From a bacterium (GTDB taxonomy: Bacteria; Planctomycetota; Planctomycetia; Kolteriales; Kolteriaceae), in the NCBI GenBank assembly GCA_019748235.1, contig JAIEPU010000149.1, positions 1-64,000 on the forward strand: a stretch of DNA of 64,000 nucleotides, read 5' to 3'. The notes beneath the pieces are model-generated. The model did not search any database, was not told the origin of the DNA, and was given only the letters and a program-made list of their open reading frames with translations. Both the position numbers and the translations under genes were made by a program. Below, one piece after another: positions 16,097 through 64,000 of this stretch; position 1 is the stretch's first letter, and every line of letters begins with the position of its first letter.

Positions 16097-16430
16097 TCAA
16101 CCTCCCAAACGAGGAGAACTCGACGCTGGTATACGGACTCAACCTGTTGTGATCACACGCAGATACCCTATGGGACTTAGCTCGTGCAAGCGAGAGCTAA
16201 CTTTCATCCGAGGGTGAGAAAATTCGACTCCCTCCGCAAACATGTCGGCAAGGCGCTCGAAGCCTCATCCGAACCTGCTGCGAGACTTATCGTTCGATCG
16301 AAATCTGCCCATGTACAGAAGGCGTTTTTCTGGAGGTTTGGGAAGGATTAGACGATTTTAATGATAACGGACGACCGTCTTTCGGAACGGTAACACGGCG
16401 CAATCTGTCTCAAGTCAAAAGGTGTAATGG
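16097..16430. promoter_or_regulatory. Divergent intergenic region with two dyad elements upstream of pyc
   Basis: No gene is supported here. A perfect 10-bp palindrome TGTGATCACA lies at 16148-16157, about 50 bases ahead of pyc, and TTAGCTC/GAGCTAA (16177-16183 and 16194-16200) forms a 7-bp inverted repeat with a 10-base spacer. Either could be a regulator site for pyc, but neither matches a site I can name with confidence. Confidence 0.25.
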
Positions 16431-18029
16431 ATTTACGGCTATTCGCGAAAAGGTGGTTCCGCCCGCACGCTGGTCGTGGCTCTACTGCTGGTCATGATGG
16501 GAGCGGTCACGTCCTCCTTTACCGACGAGTCTGTCTCCATTCTAGCAACAAGCGATCTTCCCTCAACGCAGGGAGCCACTGCCGAGGGCAACCCCGCCAA
16601 CGGGTCATCGGACACGAATCTAACGTCGTTAGTCGAAGAACTCAGGCAAAGGATCGATCGCCTCGAAGAAGAGAAAGTAGCGCTAAGCAAATCTTCGGAC
16701 GATGCGATGGATTCGATTTCAGATCGAGCAACTGCCGACTCTGGGGATGATGACGATGAATCTCAGCCCTCTGACATTAGGACGGATGAGGCTTTCCACA
16801 ACGACAAGAACAGCCGGCTCGACGATTTCTTCAATGAAGGGTTTAAGTGGGAAACGAAGAATGGGCAGTTCACCCTAAACTTCCACAACGAGACGCAACT
16901 CGACATTCGAACGTATGCACAGCCTAATTCCGATCCAACGAATCAGTTTGGTTTCTACATTCCCCGCGTCCGATTCATCTTCAACGGCATATTGACGAAG
17001 CCGATTGAGTACAACGTGAGCATCAACAAGGGCCTTGGCAATCTCGATTTGCTCGACGCGTATTTGAACTTCAACTACGACAAGAGGTTTCAATTCCGGT
17101 TTGGAAGGTACCGAGTCCCTTTCATGTATGATTGGTATGCGCTCGCCAATCAATTCCTTCCGACACCCGAACGTTCTGAGTTCGCTCTTAATAACGGATA
17201 CAACCGAAATACGGCCGCGATGCTACATGGCGAACTCCTGCAAGGGCGTGTCGACTATGCGTTGGCTGCGACGAATGGACCGAGAAATTCCTACTTCGAC
17301 GATAATGCGAGTAAAGATGTCGTCGCTTATTTGAATGCTCGCCCTTTCCTCCATTGCGATTGCCTCGAGGCATTGCACCATCTGAATATGGGTGGCTCGA
17401 CGGCCTACGGATATCAAAATCAAGAGCCGTTGCCGGTCAGTTTTTACACGTCCGCGAATGCCTCAGAAAGCGAAGGTAGCCTCAAGGCGAATTCGACATT
17501 CCTTCGATTGAATTCGGATGTCATCGAGCATGGCACTCGCTCTCTCTGGGAAGTGCATTTGGCGTACTACTTCAAATCATTGACACTAATGGGCGCTTAC
17601 GATTCCGGGTTCAACAATTACGGTTGGAACGACCAATTTGGAAAGGTACATCTTCTCACGAAAGGTTATCACGCTCAGTTCGCGTACTTTTTGACGGGCG
17701 AGGAAATCGTGCGGCGAGAGTTCGTCGATGTGAAACGACCATTCGATCCGCTGGACGGCGACTTCGGACTAGGAGCTTGGGAAATCCAGAGCCGCTTCGA
17801 TCATTTTCAAGTCGGAGATCAAGTTTTCACCGATGGATTGGCGGATCCCTCGTTTTGGACTAACGAGGTCAACACCATTGATGCAGGTTTGAATTAGTAT
17901 CTGAACAAATACACGAAAGTGTATTTCGACTGGCAGCACGCGATGTACCGCAATCCCGTCCTCTATAAGCCGGGAGGATGGCACCGTACGAATGATCTCT
18001 TCTGGGTCCGGTTCCAAATCTACTTTTAG
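16431..18029 (+). pseudogene. Phosphate-selective porin (OprP/OprO type), interrupted by in-frame TAG
   Basis: The frame codes for an outer-membrane porin: a short coiled-coil stretch (LVEELRQRIDRLEEEKVAL) follows the exported N-terminus, then FKWETKNGQFTLNFHNETQLDIRTY and the PRVRFIFNGILTKPIEYNVSINKG and FRFGRYRVPFMYDWY strands typical of the phosphate-selective porin O/P family. At 17895-17897 a TAG stops the frame after GLN, but 43 further codons continue in frame (starting YLNKYTKVYFDWQHAMYR) to a final strand ending IYF and TAG at 18027-18029. A terminal aromatic residue is what outer-membrane assembly requires, so the truncated form should fold poorly. The 5' end is also odd: no in-frame ATG precedes the signal peptide, only ATT at 16431, six bases after AAAGGTG, or GTG at 16476; an ATG at 16427 is out of frame. 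Confidence 0.8.
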
Positions 18030-52402: not shown

Positions 52403-53896
52403 TCATCTTTTAAAGACGCCGCTGATGATTTGGGAGCGACGCTCTGAGCCGGGGGAAGGACGCCTCGGGTCTTGTCGAAAAAGCTTATACGCATCGAGGC
52501 CAATCGCATCTAATAAAGTCGCGTGCAGATCTCCCACGTGGTGCCGCTCTTCGACGCTGACGAGTCCAATCTCGTCGGTTTTTCCAATAGCTTGGCCACC
52601 CTTGATGCAACCACCGGCAAGCCAAACGCTAAATCCGTGGCGGTTGTGATCGCGCCCCCCCTTGCCCAAGGGATCAAAAGTGGGAGTTCGACCAAACTCT
52701 CCTCCCCAAACCACAACGGTATCTTTCCAGAGTCCACGATCCTTCAAGTCTTGGAGAAAAGCAGCGATCGGCAAATCGGTTTCCGAGGCCCGCGCACGAT
52801 GATTCGCGGCGCAGTCCGTGTGTCCGTCCCAGCTATCCTCTAGTCCCGCGGCTCCAGAGTATATCTGAATGTAACGCACTCCCCGCTCAAGAAGTCGGCG
52901 GGCGAGCAGGCATTGTCGTCCGAAGATATTAGTGGGCGATTTTCCGATTCCGTACCGCGATTTGATCGCTTCCGGTTCTTGATCAATCCCCACGGATTCG
53001 ACGGCGCTATGCTGGAGCCGATAGGCGAGCTCATACGACTTGATCCTTGCCACTATCTCGTGGTTTACTCCCACCGCGACGCCATGTTCTTGATTGAGAT
53101 CTTTGATGAGATCAATCACCCGTTTCTGAGATTCATCCGTCACCCCAGGTGGATTCGCGAGATCGCGTAATGGCGGCATTTGCTCCCGAAAGATGAGCCC
53201 TTGATGCTCTGGGGAGAGAAATCCCGAGCCCCAATTCGATGCGCCACTACTGGGTCCACCACGCGGATCCAGCATGACGACGAACGGCGGAAGGTTTTCG
53301 TTTAAGCTTCCAAGGCCAAGATTCGTCCATGAGCCGATCGATGGATTTCCGATTCGCGATGACCCAGTGTTCATTTCGAGGCATGCTGAACCATGGGCTG
53401 ATGAATCGGTGAACATAGAGCGTATGACGCAAAGATCATCCGCGTGAATGGCCAATTGGGGGAATAGCTCGCTGATTTCCAGGCCCGATTTTCCTCGTTT
53501 TTCGAACTTCAACGGCGAAGGAGTCAGTCGACCGACGCGACGCCCAAGCGTGCCGATCTGCTTTACGTCGCCGGAATAAGTTTTCCCTTCGAATTTCGAA
53601 AGTTCCGGCTTGGGGTCAAAGGTGTCGAGTTGGCTTGGTCCACCGGACATAAAGAAGTAAACGATTCGGGTCGCCTTCTGCGGCACCCGCCAAGCAGGCA
53701 GTGGGGAAGAATCCTCTGCCGATACGGACGTGGCGAGGCCGAGATCCCCACTGAGCAGATCGGCCAACGCAATGCTACCCAATCCATAACCGAACTGGCC
53801 GAAGAATTCACGGCGCGACGGATGGCGTCGGGTACATTCTGTATCGTCACCGGGGGACAAAAGACTTGTCTCCTTACTCTGAGCAAAGGAATTCAT
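52403..53896 (-). CDS. DUF1501 protein (Tat-exported, sulfatase-like fold)
   Basis: The 497-residue protein has a twin-arginine signal region (HPSRREFFGQFGYGLGSIALADLL). The DUF1501 body shows YFFMSGGPSQLDTFDPKP, LCVIRSMFTDSSAHGSACL, YIQIYSGAAGLEDSWDGH and WGGEFGRTPTFDPLGKGGRDHNRHGFSVWLAGG. The fold is of the alkaline phosphatase/sulfatase type, but activity is not known. The gene overlaps the 3' end of the DUF1549/DUF1553 gene by 23 bases, the usual planctomycete pairing. Its own stop abuts that of the large kinase with no spacer. Confidence 0.92.
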   Translation of the reverse strand: MNSFAQSKETSLLSPGDDTECTRRHPSRREFFGQFGYGLGSIALADLLSGDLGLATSVSAEDSSPLPAWRVPQKATRIVYFFMSGGPSQLDTFDPKPELSKFEGKTYSGDVKQIGTLGRRVGRLTPSPLKFEKRGKSGLEISELFPQLAIHADDLCVIRSMFTDSSAHGSACLEMNTGSSRIGNPSIGSWTNLGLGSLNENLPPFVVMLDPRGGPSSGASNWGSGFLSPEHQGLIFREQMPPLRDLANPPGVTDESQKRVIDLIKDLNQEHGVAVGVNHEIVARIKSYELAYRLQHSAVESVGIDQEPEAIKSRYGIGKSPTNIFGRQCLLARRLLERGVRYIQIYSGAAGLEDSWDGHTDCAANHRARASETDLPIAAFLQDLKDRGLWKDTVVVWGGEFGRTPTFDPLGKGGRDHNRHGFSVWLAGGCIKGGQAIGKTDEIGLVSVEERHHVGDLHATLLDAIGLDAYKLFRQDPRRPSPGSERRSQIISGVFKR

Positions 53897-56030
53897 CGAG
53901 ATTGTAGATCACTCGACACAACTGTGTCACCGCCGCCCGGCGCGCTTCCGACTGACTCATCGATTTCTCTTTGTTGCTCCGCTTCAAATGATCGGCGGTT
54001 TCCACATCCAAGAACTGACTCAGCCGCTCCAATTCTGCCGCTGTCGGTTTTCGGCACAACGCGAGTTGGAATGAGAGATCGATCAACTCGTTCGTGTTGT
54101 CTTTACATTCAGTGAGCAAGTAATCAGCAAAGTGCCTTGCTTGACGGTTGGACAACTCGCCATTCAAAAGAGTCAGTGCTTGGGACGAAGTAGTCGTGGC
54201 TTGGCGCTTTGGAATTGACAGGGATGACGGGCACGCGTCGAACGTTTCAAAGAAGGGAACAGGAAGGGAGCGTTTCGCACATGCATAGACGGCCCGCCTG
54301 GAAGCCTCGCGTTCGTCGAATCGCTCCCAGCCCGATGCGGCATAACGATGAGACATCAAGGTTTGAATGTCGATGTAGGGGTACGTCGGAGGACCGAACA
54401 TTCGGCGATTCAGTTGTCTATTCGTTGCGAGCATGCAATCGTGAATAACCTCGGCATCGAGACGGTGGCGAGGAAATCGTGAAAGGTAAAGGTTTTCCGG
54501 ATCTGATTCCGACGGCACTTGATCATTCTTCTGGCTCATTCGATAAGTGTTACTTGAAAGAATGAGGCGGTGAAGTTCCTTTAAACTCCAATCAGCATCA
54601 TTGACGAGCCAATCCGCCAACCAGTCGAGTAACTCTGCGTGAGTCGGAGGCTGCCCCGCCATACCGAAATCATCAGGTGTTCTCACCAATCCGACGCCGA
54701 AGTGAAACTGCCAGACGCGATTGACGATGACACGAGCCGTTAACGGATTCCTCGCAGAGGCAATCCATTTTGCCATCGTTAGCCGATCGTGCTTTAGGTC
54801 ATCTGAGAAATTGATGTTTGTTTGCGTCGTACGTAGAAGTATCGCGGGTACCGACGGAACTGCTTTATCTCCAGGGTTAGTCGTTTCACCACGCCGAAGG
54901 ACGAAGACAGACTCAGCAGTGTTGGCGAGCTTCGGAATGTATACTAACGGCTCCGTGGAATCAGGATCCTTTCACGGAGGAACGTGATCCCCCTCCGGAT
55001 GACCCAACTCCAACTGCATCGATTCATTCGCCAGAGAATCTTCTTTCGTGCGCGACTGTTTCACAATATCGCTCGGCATCTCCTTGGATGCTAAATCCAT
55101 TTCGATCGGTGTTGGCTTTTCATCAGTCCGATTAACCAGGTTGGCGGGGATCGCGTCATCCTCTCGCGGAGCCCGTTGACCCGATGCAAGGATCGCCGGC
55201 AGCGCGATTTCTCGACCTCTCACGACGGGTCGTTCCAGTGGAGCGAATATTGCCGCTAATCCGTAGTAGTCCTGCTGAGTGAACGCATCCAGCTTGTGAT
55301 CATGACAGCGCGCACAACCCAGTGAAATCCCAAGGAATGCCTGTCCTGTTGTATTCACGAAGTCATCGAGTTGATCATAACGGTCCTTTTTTGCGTCCGA
55401 TGGGGCATCATCCCATGCCCCGAGCAAATAGTATCCGGTCGCGATCAGGGACGAAACCGTCGCGTCTTCCACAAGATCGCCGGCAAGTTGCTCAATGATG
55501 AAGCGGTCGAACGGCTTGTCTTGATTGAACGCCCGAATGACATAATCGCGATATCGCCACGCATACGGCTTGTTCGAGTCTCTCTCATAGCCATTGGTGT
55601 CCGCATAGCGAACGACATCTAGCCAATGACGTCCCCATCGCTCTCCATAGGCCGGGCTCCGCAACAAGTCATTGATGACGACATCAAGCAGTTTCGCCGA
55701 TGGGCGATCCAGAAAGTCCTTTTGGGCCGCGAGGTTCGGCGGAAGTCCCGTAATCCCTAAATGAACTCGCCGGAGAATCTGATGAGGAGAAGCCGGCGGC
55801 GCGGGTTTCAGTCCGCGTGACTCCAACTTCGCGAGAATGAACCGGTCGATAGGGTTTCTGACCCAGGTCGTATCAGCGACGTTCGGAATCTCGGGACGCT
55901 TAACTGGTTGATAGGCCCAATGACCGAGGGCCGCCGTTTGTAACTTATCTTCATCCGCTCGAAGTTTTGACTCCGCAGGCGCGCAGAGCAGCAGAGTCAT
56001 GCAGACGACGCGAGCGAGTCGCCAAGTCAT
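53874..56030 (-). pseudogene. DUF1549/DUF1553 exported protein, interrupted by in-frame TGA
   Basis: Starting at ATG 56028-56030 (GGAGGGG just upstream), the frame encodes a signal peptide (WRLARVVCMTLLLCAPAES), the DUF1549 domain (NPIDRFILAKLESRGLKPAPPAS, AYGERWGRHWLDVVRYADTNGYERD) and its CARCHDHK haem-type motif. At 54972-54974 a TGA ends the frame after 352 residues. The same frame continues at once with a plausible linker (KLANTAESVFVLRRGE) and the DUF1553 domain (MAKWIASARNPLTARVIVNR, TPDDFGMAGQPPTHAELLDWLA) up to 53874, giving about 718 codons. A restart at the ATG at 54774-54776 would make only an unexported half. It pairs with the DUF1501 gene. Confidence 0.85.
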
Positions 56031-59000
56031 GAACCCCTCCGAGCATGCGAGCTTTTCAACGAGTCGGAACCAATTCAATACTGCCTCTACGAACTCCTAT
56101 TCACAAGGAAAAGTTGGCCGACGAAACGAGGATTCCGACACATCTTTCGTGTTATCAAAATCAGCCACCCGCGAAGACTTCGTCCACCTCGCGGCGGGTT
56201 GGAAGCCGACGAACGCCTCCCTTTAAATTGTCATACATGACTCCACTCGGCTGGACATCCTGATCCTCTAAACCGAGTAAATGTCCCATCTCATGTAAGA
56301 CCACTGTCAACACGTCGACGCCCGACGCCGAGCGGGTTTTAGCCGTCATCGAACCATCCGCGGAGACGTCGAACTCCTCATTCCGCCCTGGAGTGCGGTC
56401 GATAAACCAGCCCTGCCCTGCTCCGTTGATGTCAATCGTTACGCCATTGGTCCATGCGGCTCCTAGCAGTTCACCTGATAAATCGCCGATGCGATATTCC
56501 GCGCGACGAAGTCGATTGATTTGGCCCGTGTTCAGCCCAGCCTGTGACCAAATCGCAATGGCCTGATCGACCATTGAATTCAATTGCGACTGCGTCAACG
56601 TTTGAGATGCCGCTGTTCCGCTTTTGAAGCTATCCGTCGAGAGGACGAGCGCGTGGAATACGTCGCTGTTATTGATGATTGGCAAAGCCGAGCCGATCGA
56701 CATCGCATAGATGGTGTCGCTTGTTTGCCAACCGAGCACTCCGTTGGAATCAAGATACCAGTTGCCGTTACTTCGATACACACCGATGTGATCTTTACCA
56801 TCACCGTTCCATGAACCGACCACGGGAAGATCGCCGCTCATACCGAACTGAAGTTGAGGATCTGTGTTCTGCCAACCAAATGCGCCGTAATCGAGGTACC
56901 AAACACCGTTGGACCGGAAGACACCGATTCGATCGCGTCCCGTCCCCTCCCAATCGCCAGCGACGGGCGTATCACCTGCGATGCCGAAGCGCACCACCGT
57001 GTCACTGGACTGCCAACCCAAAATGCCGTTGGAGTCTAGGTACCAAACCCCGTCACGATAGACGCCGACATCATCCCGACCATCGCCGTTCCAATCACCA
57101 ACGATGGGCTTGTCTCCGGCGATGCCGAATTGAAGCCAAGTATCATAAACGGGATTCCCGTATGCGTCGTAAACTCCCCGCGTGTCGAGTTTCCATGTCC
57201 CGTTGGCAGTGTTGAAGACTCCGGGTAATTCTTTTCCCGCTCCGTTCCAATCGCCGAGCACCGGCACTTCGTTGGATGAAGTTGTAAACACCACCGGAGC
57301 CATTCCCGGAAAAGTAACGACTCCGTTTTGGTTGGTGCCGAGCATGTCATACGGCTCGAGATATTTCTTGAGCGAGCTGAATTGTTGTGGATCTTGAGCA
57401 ATGGCGATTCGCGCCGCCGTTCGAAGAACTTCCGGACTGTTCAAGATGCGATCGAGCGCAAGCTCCCAATTTCCGTTCGAATTTAATGTGGAGAGGGCGA
57501 CATTGATCAGTCGATCGGGAGACTCTTGAACGATGCTTTGGCCGTATACACTTTGAACGATGGATGGAATTCGACTGAGAATGTTCGTGACCCAATTAAC
57601 CGCGAGTGATTGATTGGAAGGATAGAGTCCCGCGTTGTTGGCAACAATCTTGAGACTGGGTGCAATGGCGTTTCGTGCCGCGTTCGCCAATGCCGCCGCG
57701 TTTCGTGGTGCAGAACCAAAGACCGCGGGGGCAAACAGAGTTCCAAGCTGCTTCGACAGTTCTATCGCTTTGCGATCACTCCCATTCAAAGGATTAGCTT
57801 GCGACGCGCCGAAGAAATAGTTGAAGAAGTCGTTATTGAGTCCTGGAATGACGCTCGAGAGGTTCGTTCGTTGGAGAATACGTTCCAATTCGAAACTTCG
57901 AGCACGATCGACGGAAACGAAGTTCAGCCAGAATTGCAACTCATTATTCGTTGGAAGTCGTCCCGCCAGAATGAGGAACAGGAAACGAACGTTCGCTTGA
58001 ATCGTCAGCGTCAGATCAGGCTTCGCGATATCACCGTCAAAGAATGCTCCTACTTCGGGTTTCGGCAACTTTACATTGAGTGAGTAATAGAGGTTCTCTC
58101 CCTCTTTTGCAGAGGCTGCTTGCTGCTTGGGAGCTTTTCCCACCGTCCCATTTCCGATGAGAATCTGCGTAGAGTCCGCTCCCCCTGGAAGAAGAGTGAT
58201 TCCCTCCTGGAAGCGAATTACGTTCGTAACGGCAGGATTCACCGTGACCAGTGTCCCTCCCACGAGCGTGAAATAGTGCCCGACGCTAGACTTCGTCGTG
58301 TCGAGAGTTCCATTGATGGGAAGGCTCGTCTGAAGAAAGTTAATTGCCGTGATTTGAAAGTTGAGCGTGTCGGTCAAAGTGTAAGTGTTTGAGTTCAAGT
58401 AGATTAACTGGAGAGAACTACCGACATTCGTCGCATCGAGCGTGTTTCCCGCCAAGCTGTTCTTTGTCGCTTCCGAAGGCGTGACGTTCGATCCCCCTGC
58501 TCCATCGAGCACTGGCATCTTCAGAAAGGTGCCACCAAAGGTGTCTAGGCTGCCGGCTCCGTTTGCAACTCCGTCGAAAGCCAATGTGAACTTATCATCC
58601 GCGCCGGTTCCCCGAAGCGTGTCGGTGCCACCGTTTCCATCGAGAACGCTGAACCGTGAGAACGAACCGCCGAATGGGTTCAACGTCCCCGCGCCGGTTC
58701 CGGTGATCGTGAAGAGATCATTCCCTGTCGTTCCTTGAAGAGTGTCTATTCCACCATTCCCGTCAAGAAGAGCCATCTTCACAAATGTGCCCGAAAACGT
58801 ATTGAGTGAACCTGCACCCAGGCCCGTGGTCGTGAAGATGTCATTACCAGTTGTCCCTTGGACGGAATCTAAACCTCCATTGCCGTCAAGAATGCTGATC
58901 CTCGTGAAGTTGCCTGCAAACGTGTTCAATGATCCCTTGTTCGATCCCGTGGTAGTAAAGAGATCGTTTACTGTCGTTCCCTTGAGCGTGTTGACTCCCG

Positions 59001-60511
59001 TATTTCCATCAATCGTCTCTATGGAAGCGAACGAGCCGCCAAAAGTGTCGAGAGAACCGGCACCGGGTCCGGAGATCGTGAAGAGGTCGCTCCCCGAGGT
59101 GCCGAGAAGCGTGTCATTTCCGTCGCGCCCATTCAAAGACTCGAATGCGACGAAAGAACCTGAGAAGGTATCGAGAGTCCCCGCGCCGACGGAGCTGATT
59201 GAGTAAAGATCATTCCCTAACGTTCCCTCGAGTGTGTCGCTCCCTCCATTTCCGTCAAGCACCTGAATCTTGCTGAACGAACCGCCGAAGGTATTCAAAG
59301 AACCTGAGCGAACTCCCGTAATAGTGAAGACATCACTTCCAGCGGTCCCTCGAAGAGTGTCGATGCCTCCTCCGCCGTCCAGTTTGCTGAATTGATGGAA
59401 CGATCCGCCAAAGGTGTTAACCGATCCTGAGCCGACCGCCGTGATGGAGAATAGATCGTTCCCATTTGTTCCTTGAAGTGAATCGACGCCGCCGTTGCCG
59501 TCGAGATGATTGATGGCGGAAAAAGTTCCCGCGAATGTATCGAGCGAACCACTTCCAGGCCCGCTAAGGAAGAACGAATCATTCGCCGTCGTGCCTCGGA
59601 GGGTGTCGTCACCGCCACCACCCTGGAGGTGATCTATGTTGGCGAATCCGCCGCCGAAGCTGTCCAGAGTTCCCTGGCCGCTCCCGGTCACCGTAAAGAG
59701 TTCGTTCCCCGAAGTTCCCTGAAGCGTATCGGTCCCGCTATTTCCATCAAGCAATTCGAAATTGGCAAAAGTTCCTCCGAACGAATTCAACAAACCGGCA
59801 CCGAGTCCTGTTACGTTAAATAAATCGTTCGCATTCGTTCCTCGCAGGGTGTCTGTACCCCCATTCCCGTCGAGGAAACTGAATCCAACGAAACTCCCGC
59901 CGAATGTATCGAGCGATCCTGCTCCCACAGATGAGACAGCAAAAAGATCGCTACTCGTGGTCCCTTGCAGTGAATCGATGCCGCCATTCCCATCAAGAAC
60001 TTCCATCGCACTGAACGCGCCGCCGAAGGTATTCAGGCTGCCGGCACCAGTGCCTGTGACAGCGGTGAGTTCATTGGCTGAGGTTCCCTGGAGCGTATCG
60101 GTCCCTAACCCTCCTAGGAGAGAGTTGACGTTTAGGAAGGCTCCGCCGAATGAATCAACGCTCCCCGCATGCGTTCCCGTGATCTTAAATAGATCGTTGG
60201 CGGCCGTTCCTTCGAGCGAGTTATCTCCCCCGTTTCCATCCAGTATGCCAATGTTGAGAAACGAGCCACCGAAGCGATCAAGTGTTCCCTGACCGATGCC
60301 GCTAATAACGAAATGATCATCCCCGCTCGTCCCGCGAAGAGTGTCGGTACCACCGTTCCCATCAAGCACGTTGATGCCAGAAATCGTTCCGGCAAACGTA
60401 TCGATACTCCCCGCACCGGTTCCAGTGATTGTGAAGAGGTCGTTTCCTGTCGTGCCTTGAACCGTATCCACTCCACCATTGCCGACGATGGAATTGATTT
60501 GAGTGAAACTT

Positions 60512-60739
60512 CCACCGAAGGTGCTAAGCGTTCCTGCGCCACTCCCGGTGATCGTGAAGAGATCGTTGCCGCTACTTCCCTGCAACGAGTCGCTCCCGCC
60601 GTTGCCGTCGAGGAGATCCATGCCGGCAAAAGTACCGCCGAATGTATTCAGGCTGCCGGCACCGGTTCCGGTGATGGTGAAGAGATCGTTGCTGGAGGTT
60701 CCTCGAAGCGTGTCGGTTCCGAGCGTCCCATCGAGCACG
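60512..60739. repeat. Exact 228-bp direct repeat, copy 1
   Basis: Identical base for base to 60881-61108, offset by 369 bases (three 123-bp units). The neighbouring units are only similar, so the identity points to a recent duplication or gene conversion in the array. Confidence 0.85.
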
Positions 60740-60880
60740 CTCATGTTGATGAATGTTCCGCCGAAGGTGTCAACGCCTCCGGCGCCATTGCCTGTGATCG
60801 AGAAAAGATCACTCCCCCCTGTTCCTCGCAAAGTATCGGTGCCACTGTTCCCATTGAGAAGGACGATGCCGACAAAGGAA

Positions 60881-61108
60881 CCACCGAAGGTGCTAAGCGT
60901 TCCTGCGCCACTCCCGGTGATCGTGAAGAGATCGTTGCCGCTACTTCCCTGCAACGAGTCGCTCCCGCCGTTGCCGTCGAGGAGATCCATGCCGGCAAAA
61001 GTACCGCCGAATGTATTCAGGCTGCCGGCACCGGTTCCGGTGATGGTGAAGAGATCGTTGCTGGAGGTTCCTCGAAGCGTGTCGGTTCCGAGCGTCCCAT
61101 CGAGCACG
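60881..61108. repeat. Exact 228-bp direct repeat, copy 2
   Basis: Second copy of the repeat at 60512-60739. Its upstream edge in gene sense lies 14 bases from the in-frame TAG at 61123-61125. Confidence 0.85.
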
Positions 61109-63759
61109 TCGATATGGATGAACTAACCGCCGAAGGTGTCGAGAGTTCCCGAATTTAGGCCGGAGATAGTAAAGAGGTCGGCTCCGTTCGTTCCTTCGAG
61201 CGTATCGTCCCCGGCAAGTCCGTCGATCAAACTCATGCCATTGAATGACCCACCGAACGTACTAGCGGAGCCCGAACCGACCGACGAGATCGTGAAACGA
61301 TCATTTCCATTGGTACCCGAGATTGAGTCGTTACCGCCGTTACCGCTGAGAACATCGATTCCAAGAAAGCTGCCATTGAATGAGTTGAGCGTGCCGGACC
61401 CGTTCCCCGTGATGTTGAAAACCTCAGCGGCCGCCGTTCCTTGAAGCGTGTCCGTTCCGAGATCACCATCGATCACCGTGATGCCGACGAACGATCCGCC
61501 AAATGTATTCAACGATCCCGCGTTCGGTCCCGAGATGGAAAAGAGATCGGCGCCTGCAGTCCCTCTCAGAGTGTCGCTGCCTCCATTTCCATCGATCGAA
61601 TCGATGTTGAGGAACGAGAGCGAGACGGGATCAACCGTTCCGGATCCGGTGCCCGTAATCGTGTAACGTTCATCGCTCGTCGTACCACGAAGAACATCGT
61701 TGCCGCCGTTTCCATCAATGACGCTGATGCCGCTAAGGATGCCGCCAAATGAATTGAGTGATAGCTGTTGAACACCGGTGATGCTGAAAAGGTCATTCCC
61801 CGTGGTTCCTCGAACAGTATCAGTTCCGCCCCCACCGACGAGAGTTCCAATTCCGAGGAACGAGCCGGCAAACGTGCTGACGGAGCCGCGAGCAATACCA
61901 GTCACTGTGAACTGATCATTTCCGGTAGTCCCTTGAAGGGTATCGAGCCCTCCGTTGCCGTCGAGGAGGTCCATCCCTTCGAATCCGCCAGCGAACGAAT
62001 TCAACGTACCCGCACCCGTCCCGCTCAGCTGGTAAAGTTCATCAACGCCAAGTCCGCGCAACGTATCGATTCCAAGTCCACCGTTGACGACGCTAATATT
62101 CGCGAATGCGCCACCAAATGTATCGAGCGAGCCGGCGTGGACGCCCGTGATGCTAAAAAGATCATCTCCAGACGTGCCCGAGAGCGTGTCGTTACCCCCG
62201 GCACCATTGATGGAAGTGAATCCATTAAACGATCCGTCGAATGAACTCGACGTTCCCGAGCCAATCCCCGTAATCGTGAAGAGGTCGTTCCCCGAGGTAC
62301 CTTGAAGGGTGTCATTTCCTCCGTTGCCACTCAGGGCATCCATCCCAGCGAAGCTGCCCGCAAAAGAGGTGACGGTTCCCGAACCGAATCCGGAAATCGT
62401 GAACGTTTCGTTCGCGGACGTCCCCAGAAGAGTATCGCTACCCAGTCCACCATTGAGGAGCGATATGCCGACGAAAGATCCGCCAAAGGTGTCAACCGTA
62501 ACTGAATCGAGGCCTGTTATTGAGAAGAGATCGTCTCCCGTGCTTCCTTCGAGAGTGTCAATTCCACCATTTCCATCGATTGATGAGATACCTAGAAACG
62601 AAAGGCCGAGCACGCTCCCCGAGCCAAGCCCGGTGACATTCCAATAGTCGTTGCCCGTTGTCCCGAGAACCTCGTCGTTACCGCCGTTTCCGTCGACAAC
62701 GCTCATTTCGACGAAGGAGCCCCCAAGGGTATTGATGGTCCCTTCACCCGTTCCCGTCACGCCGAATATGTCGTTCGAGCTCGATCCTTGAACGGTGTCC
62801 GTTCCACCGTTGCCATCCAAGACAAAAAAGTTGTTAAAGGTCCCGCCGAAGGTGTTAAGTGTTCCGGTTCCCACACCGGTGATGGTGAATAAGTCATTCC
62901 CCGTTGTGCCCTGGATCGTATCGACGCCATCGTACCCGTCGAGGATATCCATCCCCTGGAAGGCGATCGGAAATGAACTGAGAATTCCGGAGCCGACGCC
63001 AGTGATCGTATAGACCTCGTCACCGGCAACAGTCTGAAGCCTATCTGTTCCTCCCGCACCATCAAGGATGGACATACCAAGAAAGAAGCCGCCGAACGAA
63101 CTGACAATGCCGAGAGATTTACTGTTCAGAACGAACGTCTCGTTACTGCTACTCCCGCGGAGAGTATCTACTCCTCCCTTCCCCTCGAGGATGGCGATCT
63201 GAGAGAATGATCCTCCAAATGTATCGACCGTTCCCGATCCGAATCCGGTGATCGAGAAGACGTCGTCTCCCGCTGAACCGACTACCGTATCCAGGCCGAT
63301 CCCAATCAAATGATCGGTTCCAGAGAACTGAAATGCGGCATTGCCGTTCTGGAATACACCTTCTCCCGCGCCGGAAATAGTAAAGGTGTTGCTCCCAATG
63401 AGATCTTGAATGGTGTCGTTCTGATCCCCCAACGAGATGTTCACGCTGTTGGTCGAGAAGAAACTGGAACTGATCGAAAGAGTGTTCGTTCCATTGCCTG
63501 AAACGCCGGCGATCGAACCGATCACGTTAAACGCGTTCGCGGTATCGTTTAGCCTGTACTGAGCACCACTTAAACTGATCGAGAGATGATTTGTTTCGCC
63601 GACACCCGAGACGATATTCAGCGTCGAGCCGACAAGCGTGACATCGTAAGCCATCGCAAGACGTGTTTCGAGCGGCTCGAAGCAGGGTGTGAACTTGCTG
63701 GTCTCCCGATGCCTTCGGTTTCTCTTAGGGTGAAAAAGTGAGCGACGAGGTCGCGGCAT

Positions 63760-64000
63760 TACTGACTCCGGAGTGCGCGGGGACCGAGAATCTGCGGGGG
63801 GAGAATCGAAGCCCGAAAATAACCGCAAGTTGTGCTGCTTGCAATGATTGGATTGGATTTGAAAAGACTTATCGTTTAGAGAGTACAGGCGTACATTTTG
63901 CGATCTCTCATTCGTCTCAATTCAGGCTTTGAAGGTGTAAAAAACAGAGAACGATTCGCCTAAAACCGGTAAGAGTCGATCTGCTTTTGTGTCTGCTCGG
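63760..64000. other. Upstream region of the giant repeat gene
   Basis: These 241 bases hold no supported gene. They should contain the promoter of the giant repeat gene, but I see no convincing hexamer pair. Confidence 0.4.

Follow-up and report, generated by a model that had tools for sequence, protein, structure and literature searches.

A putative OprO/OprP-type porin gene in the 64,000-nucleotide stretch of DNA analyzed here (the window) is interrupted near its end by an in-frame TAG, at a column that is tryptophan in every aligned relative. The case calls for no new mechanism: either the porin gene is broken in an ordinary way or the sequencing contains a slip. Our preferred reading, towards which we lean slightly, is that a once-intact 16-stranded porin of the OprO/OprP family has been truncated by a real and recent nonsense mutation; an error in the sequence is the main alternative. 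The window covers bases 1-64000 of a 75,649-base contig, in a genome of 6.34 Mb that is spread over 326 contigs and is 89.8% complete.

The porin frame runs on beyond a premature TAG

The porin gene, recognized from the list of open reading frames, the Porin_O_P profile (PF07396) and its relatives, occupies positions 16476-17897 of the forward strand up to and including the premature TAG (17895-17897), and encodes 473 amino acids from GTG, the listed candidate start, to ...NTIDAGLN. Reading on in the same frame gives YLNKYTKVYFDWQHAMYRNPVLYKPGGWHRTNDLFWVRFQIYF (17898-18026, forward strand), exactly 43 codons, and then a second TAG (18027-18029) at the point where the relatives end; direct reading of the frame thus confirms the arrangement of the two stops described in the first-pass annotation. 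PF07396 matches the part upstream of the stop with an E-value of 2.5e-10 (40.6 bits against a gathering score of 20.9), and on the read-through sequence the match covers profile positions 7-347 compared with 7-318 without the tail, although the score stays flat (40.0 versus 40.6 bits). The codon score of the tail is +0.21 in the porin frame, compared with -0.26 and -0.32 in the other two forward frames. The C-terminal aromatic residue, a Phe, is found only beyond the TAG, and the truncated product ends in Asn.

At the other end of the gene the open frame is preceded by an in-frame TAA (16425-16427), after which the frame holds no ATG, the ATG at 16427 being in a different frame. The upstream stretch (16431-16475, forward strand), translated as IYGYSRKGGSARTLV, would make a plausible start of a signal peptide and contains no ATG, GTG or TTG. 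The GTG at 16476 is the only usual start codon ahead of the hydrophobic stretch, and beginning there excludes the positively charged part of the signal peptide. The N-termini of the related porins are too diverse to decide the start, which is possibly a second defect of this gene. In a scan for promoters and terminators, sites were no more frequent than in shuffled sequence.

Relatives carry tryptophan at the position of the stop

Among 39 relatives, 12 genomes gave porin matches, which together with those of the same genome amounted to 38 table rows besides the window gene. We aligned 25 of these, 24 from relatives and one paralogue from the same genome (L021), excluding nine rows for which no locus had been fetched and four that were weak (L012, L013, L022 and L023). 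All 25 have Trp at the TAG column and end in a Phe or Tyr at a roughly equal distance beyond it, with 32-56% identity to the window porin upstream of the stop. Their C-termini align residue by residue with the 43-codon tail (35-63% identity), as do those of five closer orthologues, and the tail is for this reason not a product of chance, which upholds the earlier description of it as porin-like. Judged by these alignments, it is real porin sequence that belongs to the gene.

The proposal that tryptophan would fit at the TAG is borne out by all of these sets, and also by an alignment overlapping the 25-row set (A1, Trp in 29/29 relatives), by six loci from a contig search (6/6; Schlesneria, Pirellula, Paludisphaera, Planctomycetales 71-10 twice, and one other member of the Planctomycetota) and by OprO, which reads GVNWYVN. 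As all six contig-search loci come from Planctomycetota, the uncultured source bacterium is probably a planctomycete itself. In a search of the class, 78 of 397 genomes gave 143 matches, with at most three candidates scored per genome and some matches partial and ending short of the stop column; among them the window gene alone has an internal stop. Its five closest orthologues in that search (57-65% identity) all have N-W-YLNK at the stop position, the Trp being encoded by TGG. The first-pass annotation had also called for a comparison with homologues that might likewise end at GLN; no relative ends there, and among the relatives aligned we found no porin family with members that terminate at the TAG position.

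Three of the nearest porins, those of Schlesneria sp. RYN_441 (L238, 67% identity), Planctomycetales bacterium 71-10 (L239, 66%) and Pirellula sp. PB1.3.31 (L240, 60%), align over a nearly equal length and share the C-terminal end of the window porin, but they have a Trp codon instead of the stop and a frame that is intact through the site. The nearest orthologues as a whole (L090-L094 and L238-L240, 57-67% identity) sit in other families, and the distribution is patchy; of two genomes from the same family, one (G001) has only distant relatives (38%) and the other (G002) gave none with the porin query. No other copy of the locus was found in viral contigs, and the genus is represented by one genome.

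The stop lies at the end of strand 14 of a 16-stranded barrel model

Modeling of the read-through protein with the six contig-search relatives gave 16 barrel strands (counted by eye from the strand list, with three short ones excluded), a mean pLDDT of 72.9 and a pTM of 0.73. The best two Foldseek matches of the model are OprO (PDB 4rjw) and OprP (PDB 2o4v) of Pseudomonas aeruginosa, with TM scores of 0.61-0.66, and the family profile matches the whole barrel of OprO with an E-value of 1.1e-22 and OprP with one of 4.5e-19. Identity of the window porin to these proteins in the structural alignment is just 15-17%, and the window gene differs in its premature TAG, but the NWY stretch at the stop site is common to OprO and the window family. 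By profile and predicted fold, the window gene is a Porin_O_P member of the OprO/OprP type; OprP-type porins are among the annotations described for Planctomycetes (PMC3422733).

In the model the TAG maps to residue 366, in the last part of strand 14 (356-367), and strands 15 (373-388) and 16 (396-408), which make up the stranded tail, would be lost, leaving only 14 of the 16 strands up to the TAG. The model thereby supports the view that the barrel is unlikely to assemble without this end.

The frame shows no clear sign of long decay

From the GTG at 16476 the porin frame contains no further stop over 516 codons. If the gene has been neutral since its loss, the divergence accumulated since then is bounded at between about 1.4% (assuming one indel per ten substitutions) and 5.5% (from stops alone). 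Where the other five orthologues share a fixed residue, the window porin departs from it at 13/170 columns, compared with a range of 7/164 to 20/177 for the orthologues themselves. Given that no other stop is present and that the window porin falls within the orthologue range, there is no clear sign of long decay, and with constraint not visibly relaxed the stop is either young or a sequencing or assembly error. Nonsense pseudogenes of bacteria, whether true or spurious, likewise have one internal stop in a conserved frame that is intact elsewhere, and in this respect there is nothing distinctive about the window porin, whose stop lies inside a conserved domain with homology continuing behind it.

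Other split genes and the quality of the assembly

Two further genes of the window, both on the reverse strand, contain in-frame stops. A repeat protein of ∼2550 codons (56161-63828) has a TAG at 61123-61125 inside the repeat unit TFGG*FIHIDVLDG, at a position occupied by Ser, Thr or Ala in other units, and a PSCyt2/PSD1 (DUF1549/DUF1553) gene (53874-56078) has a TGA at 54972-54974 in the linker between its two domains. Three split genes within one 64-kb window are a warning. Elsewhere in the genome we found an amino-acid permease with an in-frame TAG (L149, 4300-4302), a protein kinase domain with an internal TAA (L148, 10632-10634), a PSD1 gene with a TAG inside PSD1 (L177, 10729-10731) and a repeat-type protein with an in-frame TAA (L155, near 9227), all on the reverse strand, and on the forward strand a probable frameshift (L127, near 11353), where a single protein gives two collinear matches that lie in different frames.

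A first homology scan for such events (333 in number) was swamped by antisense open reading frames and was dropped. A second scan, on a greedy gene set, gave 12 events, of which five were judged genuine splits on visual inspection: L148, L155 and L177 along with the window porin in this genome, and L199 in the control genome G003. The remaining seven (L146 and L153 with two each, L209 with one and L215 with two) were discarded, as their stops were closely spaced, fell at the ends of genes or occurred where the alignment had gaps or was weak. Neither L177 nor the window porin enters the rate, since they had been chosen for an already-seen stop and for the finding itself, respectively. The ∼368 kb of homology-covered sequence in unselected stretches of this genome then held two internal stops (L148 and L155) and one frameshift (L127), compared with one internal stop in about 234 kb for the control genomes G001 and G003 together; an unusually high rate of broken genes was thus rejected, there being no excess in these small numbers. 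None of the 33 sulfatase-domain matches of the genome has an internal stop, and for PSD1 the count by eye was one among the 26 matches listed of 40. With a stop rate not clearly above that of the controls and no stop in the sulfatase matches, the assembly is not visibly error-ridden. Our literature search for internal stops in metagenome-assembled genomes found no paper on the subject. A study of 126,564 genomes does attribute many internal-stop pseudogenes to errors of assembly that are associated with coverage and the quality of reads (PMC11017572).

Nonsense mutation, sequence error or read-through

The first-pass annotation had offered recent loss, read-through and sequence error as explanations of the TAG, and of these loss and error both stand. 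It is very improbable that the TAG is read through, by recoding or suppression, to give a full-length porin, even though the tail is apparently constrained and further genes of the assembly are split by TAG. Release factor RF1 is present in the genome (466.6 bits, above the curated cut-off), a CTA anticodon was absent from all 45 tRNA places found (scoring covered 150 of 218 candidates, and the genome is 89.8% complete), and in 0.876 Mb of the genome TAG terminates 124 of 491 genes, alongside 178 for TAA and 189 for TGA. For these reasons, and because other broken genes carry TAA or TGA, recoding is unlikely; recoding of TAG across the genome, which was tested after the other split genes had been seen, is rejected on the grounds of RF1, the tRNAs, the use of TAG as a terminator and the scan. 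The residues found in relatives at the in-frame TAGs also differ, being Trp in the porin and mostly Ser, but also Asp, Asn, Thr and Arg, in the PSD1 gene, and three kinds of stop together with such differing residues point to scattered nonsense changes or errors and not to one recoded codon. Nor is the RNA around the stop unusual (z-scores of -1.34, 0.90 and -0.95), including the fold after it (z -1.34). Partial near-cognate read-through of TAG in this lineage, by which the porin and the other split genes would yield both short and full-length products, we consider extremely improbable. No tRNA-Trp was seen among the same 45 tRNA places, and this tRNA probably either falls outside the incomplete assembly or is one of the candidates left unscored. 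There is hardly any likelihood, either, that the 14-strand product is itself stable and useful: nothing speaks positively for it beyond an upstream part that is open and conserved, and all aligned relatives retain strands 15 and 16 as well as an aromatic C-terminal residue (Phe or Tyr). A C-terminal signal with Phe or Tyr is described as bound by BamA (PMC3706956), and a signal in the final strand as starting assembly (PMC10945584); since this signal lies in the lost part, the truncated product would be expected to fail in assembly.

That the stop results from a miscalled base or a misassembly, or reflects a minor allele that the assembler selected, with the gene intact in the living population, is a serious possibility that we place somewhat short of even. 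The difference is of a single-substitution type in a frame that is otherwise open from the GTG at 16476 and under apparently unrelaxed constraint, and the same data also fit an error, because one miscalled base in an intact gene gives just such a single lesion. The fragmented and incomplete assembly, the two other interrupted genes of the window, the two internal stops and one frameshift in unselected stretches of the genome, and the frequency with which internal stops in assemblies are reported as spurious (PMC11017572) all favor this explanation, although the comparison with the control genomes and the stop-free sulfatase matches argue against it. The gradings given to error and to a real recent mutation are judgements and not computed values, and an early stop found in a draft genome of many contigs should with due caution be treated as a pseudogene candidate, for which reads are needed to separate decay from error.

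If the preferred reading of a real nonsense mutation holds, a single substitution would have hit the invariant Trp codon where barrel strand 14 ends, and the change would be recent and carried by the organism itself. The product would then stop after strand 14, leaving the barrel unclosed and with no C-terminal signal for the BAM machinery, and would presumably be degraded. Three further Porin_O_P loci of the genome (C243, C299 and C191) are all free of stops, so the family would not be stripped by loss of the window porin, and these loci may make such a loss bearable. If real, this would be another instance of a genome losing an outer-membrane porin while retaining three of its relatives.
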